52,397 nt of DNA from an uncultured Candidatus Saccharibacteria bacterium. Its GTDB lineage: Bacteria; Patescibacteriota; Saccharimonadia; Saccharimonadales; Saccharimonadaceae. Below, piece by piece: positions 26,639 to 52,382 of the stretch. A model generated the notes under the pieces. The model was not told the DNA's origin and did no database searches. It was given only the letters and a program-made list of their open reading frames with translations. The translations under genes and the position numbers were made by a program. The stretch's first letter is position 1, and each line of letters opens with the position of its first letter. The stretch spans positions 1 to 52,397 of the forward strand of contig CALMAK010000020.1 in assembly GCA_937859515.1 (NCBI GenBank), read 5' to 3'.

Positions 26639-29600
26639 ATGAGTCTTAAATCATCTATCAACCCCCCCCAGATTAAGAAGCGGCTGGCGGTATTTTTTGC
26701 CGTCTTCGCATTGTTGGTGCAACCGATGTATGCGTTGGTGGCAAGCCAAGTAGCAAATGCCGTCACGGCTGTCGTTGTCAACCAGGCAGAGCTTGAAGCG
26801 GCCATTGACCCTGCAAGCGGAAAGAATATTATTCAGCTGGGCGCTAGCTTCTCGGTAGATACAAAGATTTCTCTCAATCGATCGTTAACACTGAATGGTG
26901 AGGGATACACGATCACCTCCACTCGTAACAATAATCCGAATGATAACAGCAATAATGCGACACTTGGTATCAATAATACGGCTGGCGTAACCCTCAATAA
27001 CCTCACCGTTACCCGTGGTGCTGGACAGAACATTCATGGTATCAATATATGGCGCTCGACTGCGGTGCTGAATGATGTTACGATCACAGGCTTTAACAAC
27101 GGTGGAACGAAATATGGTCTTCTCGTTGGCGAGAACTCACAAGTAACGGTATATAACATTACGACCAGTGGCAATAGCCGTGGTATCAATGTCGACAAGG
27201 GTGCACCAAAACTTACGGTTAATGGACAAAGTAGTCATGGCGAGTCAACGGCTATATTTGTTGATAGCAGTACTACCTCGTATGTTGTTGATACGCATAG
27301 TCAATACCAGCGAACTTCACTTTTTGGCCACTGGTATTCTCTCAAGTCGGCACCTAGTGCTCCAGCTATTACGGCACCAGCGACTTCACCAGCAGTAACT
27401 ACGACGAATGTAAATGCTACGTGGAATGCACCGTCGTTTTCTAGCACAAGGAACGCAGCGGCTTCGTATAATGTATCCATCAATGGTGGTCCAATCACGA
27501 ATGTGACAACAACAAACTACACGTTCGACGGTCTCACTGACGGTACGTATACTATCTCGGTTCAGTCAGTTGCAGCATCTGGCCTTGTGGGCGGTACGGC
27601 AACACAAACCTTCACGGTTGAGCTGCCTGACACAACACCACCAACATTTGCAATCACTAACCCTGTAAACGGATCATATGTGCGTGGTACACAAACAATC
27701 AACGCCCAGATTACCGACGAGAGCGATATCTCAAAGGTTCTCGTGAATATCGCAGGTAACTCTCGATCATGGACAAATGGTTCTAGCGCGACGATTAGTC
27801 GTACTGGTGATATCTTCTCAACAACGATTGACACCAAGACGATTGCTGATGGTCCTGTACACGTCGTCCTTCGTGGCACAGATGGTGCAGGCAATACACG
27901 CTACTGGAACAATAATGCGAGCAACCGCCAACATGTATTTTACGTTGACAACACGCGACCTGTCGTTGAACTGGTCAGTCCAGTTGGCGCTAGCTATAAC
28001 CCGGTCAACTACGAAGTAAAGGCAACAGATAACCTTGCCTTGCAGACCGTCACGGCTCATATCTACGATGCGGCGGGTACGACGCTCGTGAAGAACTGTT
28101 CAAGTACGGTAACCCCAGATGGAGCTGATGAATATAACTTGGTTTGTCCTGTTTCGTCACTCGGTCTTTCTGACGGCACATACACGATTCGTTACAACGC
28201 AGCCGACAAGGCGGGTAATATCGCCGTTACTAAGACGGCTACATTCACTATTGACGCAATCAAGCCGACAATTCATGTTAAAGGCCAGGGTAATACGTAT
28301 ACACCCACTTCGTTGGGCCAGGGTAACATCTTCCGCGAAGTCAGCTTCAAGCTGTTCGATGGCGGCAGAGTCGACCGCGTAGAGATTAACGGTGTCAACA
28401 AGAACCTCAGCGACAGTACGTGGTCTGATGTGAATAACGTCAAGCCAGGTGTGTCTGGTGCCGTTGAAGGCAACAACACGCTGGTTGCATTTGACGTCGC
28501 TGGTAATAGCACGACCTATGAATTTGTACTTGATACGACGGCACCAAAGATTACGGTGAAGCCAGGGTATATTGGTACTCTTGGTGATAAGATTTTCAGT
28601 AATGTCAGCTTCGCACTTGAGGATTACGGTAGTTCGTCTATCAACAAACTTGATAAGTACACGATCAATGGTCATTTAAGCGATTTTAGTAATAACAAGT
28701 GGAGTGATGCAAACTTCCAAAATATCAAGGCACATCTCGTTGAAGGTGAAAATACGCTCGTACTATATGACGAAGCAGGTAACTCGTCATCATATACATT
28801 TATCTATGATGCCACGAAGCCTACGGTAAAGGTAAACCTGAACCGCAGCGGTTATCTGGTTTCAGGTGGAGTGACAAACTCAGCTAGTGTGCCAGAGATC
28901 GAGGCATTCGATAAACACCTGACACGCATCGAGGTATGGAAAGACGGTGCAAAGGTAACAGGGTGGACGACTGTCAATCAGAACGCCACAACCTATAAGA
29001 AGATTAATTGGCTAGGTAATGGCACCTATGTTATCCGTGCATTTGATGCAGCCGGTTTGGTATCAGATGACTTCACGGTCACTATTGATAACACAGCACC
29101 AACTGGTACATTTGCCTACTCACACAGCAACAACCTGACAAATCAAGATGTTACTGTAACTCTTACTACGTCCGAGGAAGTCCAGGACATTGCTGGCTGG
29201 ACACGTACTAGTGCAAATACTTTTACAAAGATATTTACGGCTAACGGTAAGTTCACCGTTGCCTTTACTGATATCGCTGGTAATAATGGTGGCGCGAACG
29301 GCGAAGTAAAGCGCATTGACAAGGTTGTGCCAGTGTTCCTCAATATTGCTGATGGCGCATCTATCGCAGGATCATCATTCGTCATTCAAGTGCAAGATCC
29401 ATACAATAACGGTGCCCACGGCATCTATGAGAAGCTTATTGTTGATGGAAGTCCTGTGAATCTTACCCGTGTTGGCGACTTTGTTTACGAAGCGACTATT
29501 AGCGGGGTGGGTAGCCATACTGTGACAGTTAGAGACAAGGCCGGCAATGAGGCGACGATTACATTCTTGATTGGAGATGCAGTTCCTGCTTCGGTGGTTA

Positions 29601-30367
29601 CAATTACTAATCACGAACGCAACGATGATGGTACCTACACTATTCGGGGCACGACAACGCACCCTACTGATACGGTGAAACTTTGGTTTGTTACTGAGGG
29701 CGGTCATGTGGAGATCGAGGGTGTTGTAGTTGACGTAGAAGGCAATTGGTCAGTCCCAACTGGTAAACTTACGCCAGGTGAATATGAATTGTTTGCCCTT
29801 ACGACAAACGAACAAGGCGTCCAGACCCCCGTAGAGAGCACCTATACATTTGAGGTTAAGAATAATAATGGTGGTGGCCAACAGGGTGGTGCTGAAGAGG
29901 TTCTTGCCAACGAGAGTGCCGATGAGGAAGATCGTCCAACTCTGCAATCGAACCCAATTGCGTTTCTTCCTGCAACCCTCGGCACGACTGGCTTTAATGA
30001 TGGTACGGCTACAACACCATTGCTACGCACAGCCCCATCGGCAAACAGTGATGATAGTGACGCTGACGTTCTTGGTGCCGAAGATGTACGTGCTGACTGG
30101 TCGGTTGTAAATGCTGCAATGGCGGGCTTTATCGCCATTCTTGCCGTTGTCGCCTTGGCTGGCATCCGCCGCAAAGAGACGGATAACAATACGGGTGCGC
30201 GCGTGTTCATGTTGGTGCCTGCGGCTGCGGCGATTATCGCATTCTTCGTAATTGACGATTTGACCGGTTCGATGATTTGGTTCAACGTATGGACATGGCT
30301 GTTCGCCGGTATCTTGGTGGTCCAGGCAATCCTCGCCACTCTGACAACAAAGACAGCGAACGATTAA
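26639..30367 (+). CDS. Giant surface protein: beta-helix, Ig-like repeats, three C-terminal helices
   Basis: 1242 residues. A signal peptide (about 14-40) follows a C8 tract at codons 8-11. Residues 45-235 look like a right-handed beta-helix (repeated short strands, LNNLTVTRG, INIWRSTAVLNDVTITGF). A fibronectin-III-like module (about 235-330) and several Ig-like modules follow to about 1085, each ending near DxAGN. The C-terminus has three membrane helices (about 1159-1236), so it is anchored by membrane segments rather than by a sortase signal. It is most likely an adhesin or cell-surface fibre; sugar binding by the beta-helix is possible. Gain or loss of one C would truncate it at once. Confidence 0.82.
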   Translation: MSLKSSINPPQIKKRLAVFFAVFALLVQPMYALVASQVANAVTAVVVNQAELEAAIDPASGKNIIQLGASFSVDTKISLNRSLTLNGEGYTITSTRNNNPNDNSNNATLGINNTAGVTLNNLTVTRGAGQNIHGINIWRSTAVLNDVTITGFNNGGTKYGLLVGENSQVTVYNITTSGNSRGINVDKGAPKLTVNGQSSHGESTAIFVDSSTTSYVVDTHSQYQRTSLFGHWYSLKSAPSAPAITAPATSPAVTTTNVNATWNAPSFSSTRNAAASYNVSINGGPITNVTTTNYTFDGLTDGTYTISVQSVAASGLVGGTATQTFTVELPDTTPPTFAITNPVNGSYVRGTQTINAQITDESDISKVLVNIAGNSRSWTNGSSATISRTGDIFSTTIDTKTIADGPVHVVLRGTDGAGNTRYWNNNASNRQHVFYVDNTRPVVELVSPVGASYNPVNYEVKATDNLALQTVTAHIYDAAGTTLVKNCSSTVTPDGADEYNLVCPVSSLGLSDGTYTIRYNAADKAGNIAVTKTATFTIDAIKPTIHVKGQGNTYTPTSLGQGNIFREVSFKLFDGGRVDRVEINGVNKNLSDSTWSDVNNVKPGVSGAVEGNNTLVAFDVAGNSTTYEFVLDTTAPKITVKPGYIGTLGDKIFSNVSFALEDYGSSSINKLDKYTINGHLSDFSNNKWSDANFQNIKAHLVEGENTLVLYDEAGNSSSYTFIYDATKPTVKVNLNRSGYLVSGGVTNSASVPEIEAFDKHLTRIEVWKDGAKVTGWTTVNQNATTYKKINWLGNGTYVIRAFDAAGLVSDDFTVTIDNTAPTGTFAYSHSNNLTNQDVTVTLTTSEEVQDIAGWTRTSANTFTKIFTANGKFTVAFTDIAGNNGGANGEVKRIDKVVPVFLNIADGASIAGSSFVIQVQDPYNNGAHGIYEKLIVDGSPVNLTRVGDFVYEATISGVGSHTVTVRDKAGNEATITFLIGDAVPASVVTITNHERNDDGTYTIRGTTTHPTDTVKLWFVTEGGHVEIEGVVVDVEGNWSVPTGKLTPGEYELFALTTNEQGVQTPVESTYTFEVKNNNGGGQQGGAEEVLANESADEEDRPTLQSNPIAFLPATLGTTGFNDGTATTPLLRTAPSANSDDSDADVLGAEDVRADWSVVNAAMAGFIAILAVVALAGIRRKETDNNTGARVFMLVPAAAAIIAFFVIDDLTGSMIWFNVWTWLFAGILVVQAILATLTTKTAND
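26662..26669 (+). repeat. C8 homopolymer in the 5' coding region (candidate contingency tract)
   Basis: Eight C cover the end of codon 8 to the start of codon 11 (Asn-Pro-Pro-Gln). With C9 a TAA follows three codons later (CCA GAT TAA). With C7 the frame stops at a TAG after about 28 codons. Only C8 (or a multiple-of-three change) expresses the protein. Confidence 0.8.
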
Positions 30368-48615: not shown

Positions 48616-49686
48616 TTAGTTACTGGCGTTTTGCGCCTTCAGCTCGCGCTCGTAGGCCTGTAGGTGTTCGATAATATCATCAATGCGACCATCCATCGCC
48701 TGCGGGATGCCGCTGCGGCTATAACCAATGCGATGGTCGGTAATACGGTCTTGCGGGAAGTTGTAGGTGCGAATTTTTTCACTGCGATCACCTGTACCAA
48801 TCAGTCCGCGGCGCTCGGCCGTTAGTTTGGCGTTTTCTTCGTCGATTTGCGCTTGCAATAGGCGGCTTCGGAGTACGCTGAGTGCTTTTTCCTTGTTTTT
48901 GATTTGTGACTTTTCGTCTTGGTTTGTTACGACAAGGCCGGTTGGAAGGTGAGTGATGCGCACGGCACTATCGGTTGTATTGACGCTTTGGCCGCCATGA
49001 CCACCACTACGGTACACGTCGATCTTGAGATCATTCATGTGGATTTCAATATCTTTTTCTTCGGCCTCAGGAAGGACGGCAACGGTGACAGTACTGGTGT
49101 GGATACGACCTTGTGATTCAGTGGCAGGAACGCGTTGAACGCGGTGCACGCCAGACTCAAATTTCAGCTGTGCGTATGGCGCGTCGCCCTTGATAAGGAA
49201 GACAACTTCCTTGTATCCACCCGTATCATTGGCACTTTCAGATAATTGTTCGGTTTTGAGGTCATGCGCCTCACAGTAACGGAGGTACATTCGGTACAAT
49301 TCGGCGGCAAATAAACTCGCTTCGTCACCACCTGCACCGGCACGGATTTCCATGATAACGTTTTTCTCGTCGTTCGGATCTTTCGGAGATAACATAACAA
49401 ACAGTTCTTCCTCAAGAGCAGCCAATCTCTCTTCAGTCTCACTTACCTCGGCTTTGGCTAGTTCTGCGAGCTCATCGCTGCCGCCGGCTAATTCCTTCGC
49501 CTCAATCAGTTGCTGTTCAAGTGTCGCGCGGAGGGTTGCTTTTTCAATAATGCCTTCAAGTTCAGTAAAGCGTTTGTTCTTACTGGTAAAGTCAGGGTCA
49601 TTGTAGGCGGTAGGAGTTGCCAAAAAATCACCTAATTCGGATTTTTCGGTTGCTAATTCATCAATGTTTAGTTCAATTTTTGGCAT
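48616..49686 (-). CDS. prfA: Peptide chain release factor 1
   Basis: 356 residues. The codon-recognition tripeptide is PAT (187-189), the RF1 form that reads UAA and UAG. GGQ lies at 231-233 within [16 protein letters not shown], where PrmC methylates the Gln. Length is normal. The genome uses TGA stops too, so an RF2 is expected elsewhere. The start has no Shine-Dalgarno; a TGA-TATGAT box ends 12 nt upstream. Confidence 0.95.
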
Positions 49687-49698
49687 AATTCAATACTA

Positions 49699-49707
49699 AT
49701 CATATCA
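49699..49707 (-). promoter_or_regulatory. Extended -10 promoter of prfA
   Basis: TGA-TATGAT on the minus strand, 12 nt before the ATG, giving a leader of about 5 nt. Confidence 0.55.
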
Positions 49708-49779
49708 CATTACCTCTGTTTGGCGTAATGTAACAGAACAGAACATCTCTCCTTGGCTAAATGGGCTGAGAGGAAAAGG

Positions 49780-49810
49780 TTGCCTGTCGGAGGGGGGGGG
49801 GTGCTATAAT
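49780..49810 (+). promoter_or_regulatory. Promoter of the LRR surface protein with G10 spacer tract
   Basis: TTGCCT (49780-49785) and extended -10 TGC-TATAAT (49802-49810) are 19 bp apart. The spacer holds ten G. Loss of two G would give the optimal 17 bp, so promoter strength should change with tract length. Confidence 0.78.
49792..49801 (+). repeat. G10 homopolymer between -35 and -10
   Basis: Ten consecutive G. It is the longest homopolymer I noticed in the window and lies entirely inside a promoter spacer. Confidence 0.95.
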
Positions 49811-49869
49811 AAAAGCATATACTCTATGAAATAAAAATCATACCATTCCACCACAGAAGGGTAATCACA

Positions 49870-51990
49870 ATGAGAGTAACAGTAAGAGGACTAAATCATC
49901 GCTTGCGTGGCGTGGTGACTGTTTTTGGAATAAGTCTTGCAATTATCACGGCGGTTGCCGGGGTCTTGGCATATAGCAACAAGAATGCACAAGCGGCAGT
50001 TCCACCAGATTCATGCTTTACAATGTCGGGCGGTACAATCACAGCATATTCGACTGCAGCAGGTTGCCCAAAGAATGTTGATATCCCCAGTACGATTGGC
50101 GGGGTGACGGTGACGGGCATCGGTACGCAAGCGTTCTTTAATAAAGCGCTTACCGCTGTGAGTATTCCTAGTACGGTCACCTCAATTGGTTCAATGGCAT
50201 TTTACCTCAATCAGATTACCTCGCTCCCTGCGTATTTTTCAAATCCTTCGGTGACAACGATTCCGCAGTATGCATTTGGATCAAATCGCTTTACTTCGCT
50301 GACGATACCTGCAAACATTACAACGATTGAGTCGGGCGCTTTTATGTCAAACCAACTGACAAGCATGACAATTCCTAACACGGTTATCTCTCTTGGATCG
50401 CAGAGTTTTGCCTATAATGCGAGCCTTACTTCTTTTACGGTGCAGGGTGATCCAGTGACTATCCAATCGGGTGTTCTCGCAGGCAATAACAGCCTTACGA
50501 CAATCTCTTACGGTGGAACAGCCTATACATCGGCAAATCCAAACGATGATACCTGCTTTACTGTATCTGGAGGAACGATTACAGGATTCCTCAAGGCTGA
50601 CCTTGCAAATATAAAGGCGAACGGACAGGCGTGTCTTAGTGCTGAGCTTGTAATTCCTAGTTCGATTGGCGGTACGACGATAACATCACTCGCAAACTCG
50701 TCGCTTTCTAGTAAAGGGTTTACGACAGTAGCCATCCCTTCGACGATTACATCTATTAACTCATACTCGCTCTACGGCAACAAGCTAACTGAGGTAATCG
50801 TCCCTGCTTCGGTGACCTCTATTGGTGATTATGCGCTTTATAACAACCAGATTACGCAGGCGACCTTCCAGGGTAGCCCAACTACGGTTGGTGCTAATAT
50901 TCTTCGCAATAACCCCGTGCAGAGTTTAACCTATGCAGGTACTACCTACACACCTGCGAATTCTCCAATTGATGAAAGTTGCTTTGAGTTCAATAGCACG
51001 ACAGGTGTAATAACAGGTATACTAAGTGCCGATCCGGCGACTGTGAAGGCAACTGGCAAGGCATGTATGAGTCTACAGCTTGTTGTGCCTGCGGAGATAG
51101 GTGGCGTTCAGGTTACTGAGATTACGGGTGGTTTTCAGAATATTGGGCTGACTTCTGTAGACATACCGTCGACGATTACGAAGGTGTCAAGCTATGCATT
51201 TACGGGTAATGCCATTGTAATCCCAGAAATGCCATCATGGACTCCTTCTGACATCACTTCGTTGCTGACGCAGCCGGCGAATATCACAATTGATGGCGTA
51301 CCGATGACTATATCGACCAGTCTTTCGGCGGGAAGTACGACGGGTACGCATATTGATGCAGTTGATTACATTCTTCATCGATTTGACGACAAGTGGTATC
51401 CAGGTCAGTGGCAAGCAGACTCACGAATTACTAGCGGACGCACTATGACTGTTGAGGTAGAGGGCGATTTTAGTAAACTAGAAGATTTCAGTGTGTATGT
51501 TTCAGATGCCGAGCAAACACCTTTTCGAGTGTATGGATTTGACGCTGATGGCAATCGTGTTGATGTGACCGATTGGGTGGTGACGGATCAACGTGCAGAT
51601 GATTCTGGTCCTGCGATTCGACCGAACCCACATACGGTGCTTGCGGATTCTATCGAGTTTGGCAATCCAACGGCACCAGGTAGCGTCAATGATGACACGA
51701 TGCGCGTACGAATACAGGGGGTGCCGCTTGCGTCACTGAAGAAATTTGTGATTGAGTTTACATCGCAGAGCACTGGTGACTGGGTAGAGTGGGGATTTCT
51801 TGGGCGTGCACCAGCACCAGCTGTTGATCCGGTCGATCCCACTGACCCAGAAGTTCCAAACATACCGGATACTAAAGCACCTAACGCTGGTGTCGGGAGC
51901 TCAACACAGGGCTTCGCCGCCATCGCTGGGATGCTGCTACTGGTAAGCATTGGCGTAGTGGCTGTTCTGCGTCGTCGTGGTACTGTGTAA
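49870..51990 (+). CDS. BspA-like leucine-rich-repeat surface protein with APNAG anchor signal
   Basis: 706 residues. A signal peptide (about 12-43) ends AQAAV. Residues 49-470 contain BspA-type LRR_5 repeats (IPSTVTSIGSMAF, VPASVTSIGDYALYNN). They are arranged in three modules, each opening with a DxCF...SGGxITG...CxS cysteine pair followed by VIPSSIGG, likely disulfides made through VKOR. A C-terminal domain (about 480-645) is unassigned. The end is a DP-rich linker, APNAG (670-674), a membrane helix and RRRGTV. BspA-like proteins bind host matrix or other bacteria. GAAGGG precedes the ATG by about 8 nt. Its promoter carries the G10 tract. Confidence 0.85.
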   Translation: MRVTVRGLNHRLRGVVTVFGISLAIITAVAGVLAYSNKNAQAAVPPDSCFTMSGGTITAYSTAAGCPKNVDIPSTIGGVTVTGIGTQAFFNKALTAVSIPSTVTSIGSMAFYLNQITSLPAYFSNPSVTTIPQYAFGSNRFTSLTIPANITTIESGAFMSNQLTSMTIPNTVISLGSQSFAYNASLTSFTVQGDPVTIQSGVLAGNNSLTTISYGGTAYTSANPNDDTCFTVSGGTITGFLKADLANIKANGQACLSAELVIPSSIGGTTITSLANSSLSSKGFTTVAIPSTITSINSYSLYGNKLTEVIVPASVTSIGDYALYNNQITQATFQGSPTTVGANILRNNPVQSLTYAGTTYTPANSPIDESCFEFNSTTGVITGILSADPATVKATGKACMSLQLVVPAEIGGVQVTEITGGFQNIGLTSVDIPSTITKVSSYAFTGNAIVIPEMPSWTPSDITSLLTQPANITIDGVPMTISTSLSAGSTTGTHIDAVDYILHRFDDKWYPGQWQADSRITSGRTMTVEVEGDFSKLEDFSVYVSDAEQTPFRVYGFDADGNRVDVTDWVVTDQRADDSGPAIRPNPHTVLADSIEFGNPTAPGSVNDDTMRVRIQGVPLASLKKFVIEFTSQSTGDWVEWGFLGRAPAPAVDPVDPTDPEVPNIPDTKAPNAGVGSSTQGFAAIAGMLLLVSIGVVAVLRRRGTV

Positions 51991-52061: not shown

Positions 52062-52382
52062 TTACTTGTCGTCCTTCTTTGCTTTGTTGGCTGCGGCTTT
52101 CTTTGCCTTGTTTGCCAAAGCTTGCTTGCGGGCCTCTGCGGCTGCGGCGCGAGCCTTAAATCGATCAACGCGACCTTCGGTGTCGATGATCTTCTCTTCA
52201 CCAGTAAAGAACGGGTGAGATGCTGATGAGATGTGGACTTTCACGAGTGGATACTCGTTGCCATCTTCCCATTTGATGGTTTCTGCTGTCTGCGCGGTTG
52301 ACTGAGTCAGGAACGCAAATCCCGCTACATCGTCGCTAAATACGACAGGGCGGTAGGTGGTTGGGTGTATACTGCTTTTCAT
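52062..52382 (-). CDS. rpmE2: Ribosomal protein bL31, type B (zinc-free)
   Basis: 106 residues. [41 protein letters not shown] and [13 protein letters not shown] are L31 signatures. The CxxC pairs of the zinc form are absent, so this is type B. A Lys/Ala-rich tail of about 35 residues (from about 72) extends beyond the usual length and may contact rRNA. The start lies 9 nt after a TACAAT box at the window edge. Confidence 0.92.

Follow-up and report, generated by a model that had tools for sequence, protein, structure and literature searches.

Promoter and coding region of the LRR gene

The window analysed here is the whole stretch of 52,397 nucleotides, a contig of an uncultured Candidatus Saccharibacteria (TM7) bacterium of the same taxonomic family as the Candidatus Saccharibacteria genomes G007, G029, G035, G087 and G096. 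Close to its right-hand end, a gene for an LRR protein is preceded by a promoter-like arrangement that contains ten consecutive G (Table 1). The TTGCCT hexamer, the ten G, the extended TATAAT box and the 19-bp spacer noted in the preliminary description were all confirmed by direct reading. The hexamer and the tract are separated by GTCGGA, and the spacer occupies 49786–49804; the G10 run lies wholly between the -35 and -10 boxes, such that its length sets the spacer. The -10 is 59 bp from the ATG of the 706-residue open reading frame. TTGCCT also forms the -35 of two further tract promoters in a set of nine genomes described below, and TGCTATAAT is found behind a G tract in further Saccharibacteria as well. 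A consensus scan of positions 49600–49960 revealed no additional sigma-70 promoter with a spacer of 16–18 bp, under a rule that also passes over the TTGCCT/TATAAT promoter because its spacer is 19 bp, and no Rfam element was detected in the promoter region.

Table 1. Features of the locus, with positions numbered along the window
Feature	Position	Strand	Basis or remark
prfA (peptide chain release factor 1), divergent neighbour	48616–49686	-	Adjoins rpmE in genus-mate G001
-35-like hexamer TTGCCT	49780–49785	+	Read from sequence; 4/6 match to TTGACA
G10 homopolymer, proposed slippage tract	49792–49801	+	Inside the -35/-10 spacer; sequence and comparative scans
Extended -10, TGC-TATAAT	49802–49810	+	TGC 49802–49804, TATAAT 49805–49810
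Expected transcription start	49816–49818	+	About 7 nt past the -10; inferred from the sigma-70 promoter rule, no measurement
Likely ribosome-binding site AGAAGGG	49855–49861	+	Sequence
Secreted LRR (BspA-type) surface protein, 706 aa, proposed controlled gene	49870–51990	+	Open reading frame; N-terminal hydrophobic signal segment
Top-scoring LRR_5 stretch among several (aa 129–214)	50254–50511	+	Pfam
C-terminal sortase-like tail (APNAG, hydrophobic stretch, RRR)	51880–51978	+	Under Pfam cut-off
rpmE-like gene (ribosomal protein L31), other flank of the LRR gene	52062–52382	-	Sequence

No homopolymer in the window, whatever its base, is as long as the G10 run; next come one C8 and one T8, with no A8. 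Run counts drop about six-fold for each extra base, and roughly 0.002 G/C runs of ten or more would be expected in the window. Within the 907-kb genome it is the single G/C run of at least nine, and one of only three of at least eight. A chance origin of the tract promoter was considered and is ruled out by these expected run counts, together with the reversed-pattern and shuffle controls given below. Elsewhere in the window, a secreted, repeat-rich surface protein of 1242 residues (26639–30367, + strand) carries a C8 run at 26662–26669, in frame over codons 8–11; it is possible that this run acts as a translational switch.

The product of the downstream gene was described at the outset as a BspA-like LRR protein, and this is borne out by the match to Pfam LRR_5 (E 3e-39; 134.1 bits against a gathering cut-off of 27.7). 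Judged by sequence only, its N-terminal signal or hydrophobic segment and the LRR_5 repeats mark the protein as putatively surface-exposed. The anchor signal that had also been proposed is only weakly supported: a tail of the appropriate kind is present and the genome encodes two sortases, but the Gram_pos_anchor score of 13.7 bits falls under the cut-off of 20, with APNAG in place of LPXTG. In the genus-mate G001, prfA and rpmE are adjacent with 63 bp between them and the LRR gene is absent, which indicates that the gene is accessory.

No orthologous promoter was found among relatives, the only genus-mate being without the gene, and length variation at the G10 locus itself could not be seen as there is one assembly only and no second genome with the locus. 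Homologs in three genomes of other genera (G101, G076 and G159), and a paralog in the window genome, are 41–57% identical over parts of the protein; none of these has a G tract upstream. In the homolog L240, TGCTATAAT is present and the tract is absent. Viral contigs scanned for the flank of the locus gave no match.

Recurrence of tract promoters

The arrangement of at least eight G followed within 0–8 nt by TATAAT was found in 29 of 295 genomes of the same family, and the reversed pattern in 2. For nine genomes with complete tract sets, all 124 tracts of at least eight G were scored. These genomes were picked from those with hits and the per-genome rate is therefore inflated; the selection has little bearing on the orientation and shuffle controls. 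A -35/-10 spacer location (15–23 bp between the boxes) was assigned to 41 of the 124 tracts, as against 1 when the orientation is reversed and 2.4 when the flanks are shuffled, and the other 83 lie outside promoters. The 41 spacer tracts have a -35 of the TT type (TTGACA in 20) and are 8–15 G in length. When only the -35 side is considered, TTGAC followed by at least eight G occurs 70 times in nine Saccharibacteria, versus 4 in the control. The window genome has one tract promoter, and others have several. The pattern is uncommon beyond the family: it is present in 14 of about 357 other Patescibacteria, where the control gives 5, and within other families of the same order in 2 of about 188 genomes. 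Many of the tracts are no more than about 200 bases away from the end of their contig (contigs C3, C5, C6 and C24 of G035; C8, C17 and C41 of G238; C8 of G243), as though assembly had been halted by mixed tract lengths, by repeats or by failed poly-G reads.

A scan for G8-TGCTATAAT across 84,980 species returned 79 stretches, mostly with TTGACA in front, many of them from the termite-gut lineage Candidatus Ancillula, gut Clostridia, Kiritimatiellae and further groups. In the termite-gut MAG Candidatus Ancillula JAIRWY01, 29 matches to TTGAC and tract were counted versus 1 in the control. Across this one MAG, nearly identical promoters of the form TTGACAAGC, then G9 to G14, then TGCTATAAT are repeated (loci L164–L166, L170, L172, L182, L197, L198, L201, L202, L204–L206, L214 and L220–L224). 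We infer that the tract-promoter solution probably arose several times.

The genes behind the spacer tracts are biased towards surface proteins. An N-terminal hydrophobic segment is predicted for 44 of 71 open reading frames behind such tracts (62%) and for 46 of 219 (21%) other open reading frames in the same loci (p 4e-10), although the hydropathy test is crude. Pfam domains behind tracts are mostly of surface type and include TIG, Flg_new, Fib_succ_major, RCC1 and the type IV pilin N_methyl domain. Some downstream genes are seemingly cytoplasmic (a Mur ligase and a LexA-like protein), and part of the matches may thus be due to chance. Type IV pilin-like genes, with GFTIIEVVLVLAIAGLIFL or a close variant, stand directly behind spacer tracts at L156 (two tracts), L252, L275, L013 and L160, and such pilin-like tract genes occur across several Saccharibacteria. 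N. lyticus TM7x binds its bacterial host by means of type IV pili (PMC12206443).

Tract length and mismatch repair

Tract length differs in 14 of 22 near-identical tract pairs, a count that takes in all groups, including pairs from a coding-tract family and from outside the Saccharibacteria. Among promoters with near-identical flanks, G243 has G15 at L022 and G10 at L061; G035 has G12, G10 and G13 at L149, L157 and L159, as well as G11 at L146 and G10 at L151; and G238 has G9 at L057 and G10 at L058. Two chicken-gut MAG contigs, which are not from Saccharibacteria, are the same over about 1 kb except for G9 versus G10. These contigs (L179 and L203) are filed as Ureaplasma and Gallilactobacillus; they share one locus, which carries a KxYKxGKxW-like adhesin signal and a G9 or G10 promoter, and one or both are probably misbinned. 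Homopolymer lengths in MAGs may be wrong by one or two.

A gene family of at least five copies in G238 has its G tract just past the start codon. Copies with G9 (L102 and L105) are in frame and encode 208 residues, whereas those with G10 (L101, L103 and L106) are frameshifted and encode 13. This is how standard translational switching is laid out, and it shows that changes in the length of G tracts have taken place within the group.

Homopolymer slippage is expected to be frequent without MutS/MutL repair. A profile search for mutS1 (TIGR01070) gave no match in any of 22 Saccharibacteria genomes, the window genome included, while it was positive in 11 of 14 control genomes. A survey of Saccharibacteria likewise reports neither MutS nor MutL (PMC8406219).

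Interpretation of the G10 promoter

We consider it likely that the G10 run is a simple-sequence contingency element within a sigma-70 promoter, which switches the LRR surface protein by slippage. That the promoter is phase-variable was the main proposal of the preliminary description, and it is supported by the recurrence of such tracts in the family with the correct orientation and position, by their differing lengths in near-identical promoters, by the in-frame and frameshifted versions of a coding tract and by the absence of MutS. Slipped-strand replication errors would add Gs to the tract or remove them, and the missing MutS/MutL repair would leave such slippage uncorrected. The number of Gs would set the distance between the -35 and -10 boxes, at 19 bp for G10 and 17 bp for G8, and the changed spacing would be expected to alter the binding of RNA polymerase at the LRR-gene promoter. 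The predicted outcome is a mixture of cells with high or low amounts of the LRR surface protein. In porA and in T. pallidum tp0126, a spacing of 17 bp is best (PMC3899988, PMC7864442); by analogy, the assembled allele, with 19 bp, is predicted to represent a weaker state. The extended -10 (TGC) may soften the dependence on spacing; with a -35 matching at four of six positions and an extended -10, a promoter class that depends less on the -35, spacing could have a graded or only a minor effect. The change of length at this locus, its effect on transcription and a role of the protein in binding or evading partner cells are all three inferred.

The extended -10 also leaves room for another reading, which we regard as unlikely, namely that it drives the promoter by itself and that the tract is a neutral, fixed spacer, error-prone yet irrelevant to expression. 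Such a reading could draw on the tract-free promoters, TGC-TATAAT or TGC-TACAAT-like, of the homologs and the genome's own paralog, and on the presence of a single tract promoter in the window genome. It does not, however, lead one to expect the strong orientation-specific enrichment of G tracts in the spacers of the family, nor the bias towards surface genes, nor a run of a length that is otherwise rare in the genome. The orientation bias is itself more than slippage alone requires: G is always on the coding strand (41 versus 1), and the tract could conceivably be a fixed regulatory or structural element, for instance the site of a protein that reads G tracts or a stiff spacer that tunes the promoter. 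This seems very improbable, given that lengths of 8–15 G and spacers of 15–23 bp vary and that near-identical promoters have unequal tracts; moreover, an intramolecular quadruplex of four runs would need more than ten Gs. There remains the prospect of a sequencing or assembly artefact, in which the tract is in reality far shorter or the run stems from two-colour chemistry. The assembly is a draft, and several of the family's tracts are near contig ends, but the G10 run is internal and falls exactly between the promoter boxes, the same architecture is seen in MAGs from many projects and assemblers, and the tracts show a strong orientation bias; we therefore give this explanation hardly any credence.

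The slippage-promoter mechanism favoured here is already known elsewhere, and the best reading of the locus is as a porA- or tp0126-like promoter that forms part of a wider Saccharibacteria set. The porA promoter was reportedly first studied by van der Ende in 1995. Slippage in a poly-C promoter tract controls the fim surface gene in Bordetella. In Neisseria meningitidis porA, the precedent invoked in the preliminary description, poly-G lies between the -35 and -10 and one-base changes are reported to alter transcription (PMC3899988, PMC7864442). As in porA, the tract described here occupies the spacer of a surface protein gene; unlike porA, it belongs to a different phylum and to an epibiont without MutS, has an extended TGC -10, and its switching is inferred only. 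The slippage-controlled tract of N. meningitidis opc overlaps the -35 (PMC7864442); like the LRR gene, opc and fim are surface genes with a homopolymer in the promoter, but as poly-C rather than poly-G. In T. pallidum, the OmpW homolog tp0126 has poly-G in the -35/-10 spacer, as does the window locus, with activity best at 17 bp, while the tract of tprL, 7–11 G in vivo, coincides in part with the -10 region and is not what determines the spacer (PMC7864442). The tp0126 and tpr genes are from a different phylum, and expression data exist for T. pallidum only.

Within the Patescibacteria, a Gracilibacterium has a hypervariable gene with 9-mer coding repeats (PMC6851277), which is likewise repeat-based hypervariation in this group (CPR) but in a coding gene instead of a promoter homopolymer, and antigenic variation by domain reshuffling has been suggested for Patescibacterium (PMC11809585). 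The open-access papers searched contained no earlier report of phase variation through poly-G in either the Saccharibacteria or the remaining Patescibacteria, in agreement with the initial statement that no case is described in the phylum, although absence cannot be proven in this way.

More broadly, we lean towards the view that many Saccharibacteria employ genome-wide random switching through poly-G in promoters and gene starts, where mutable tracts without mismatch repair would diversify the pilins, adhesins and other contact proteins of an epibiont that depends obligately on other bacteria, similar promoters seeming to have separate origins in Ancillula and gut Clostridia. If this is true, the surfaces of Saccharibacteria, including their pili, would vary from cell to cell; host switching and host resistance, as well as the success of these epibionts at strain level, would then have a direct explanation that is open to testing. 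Phase variation is known chiefly from animal pathogens and commensals; it would then also serve bacteria that live on other bacteria.
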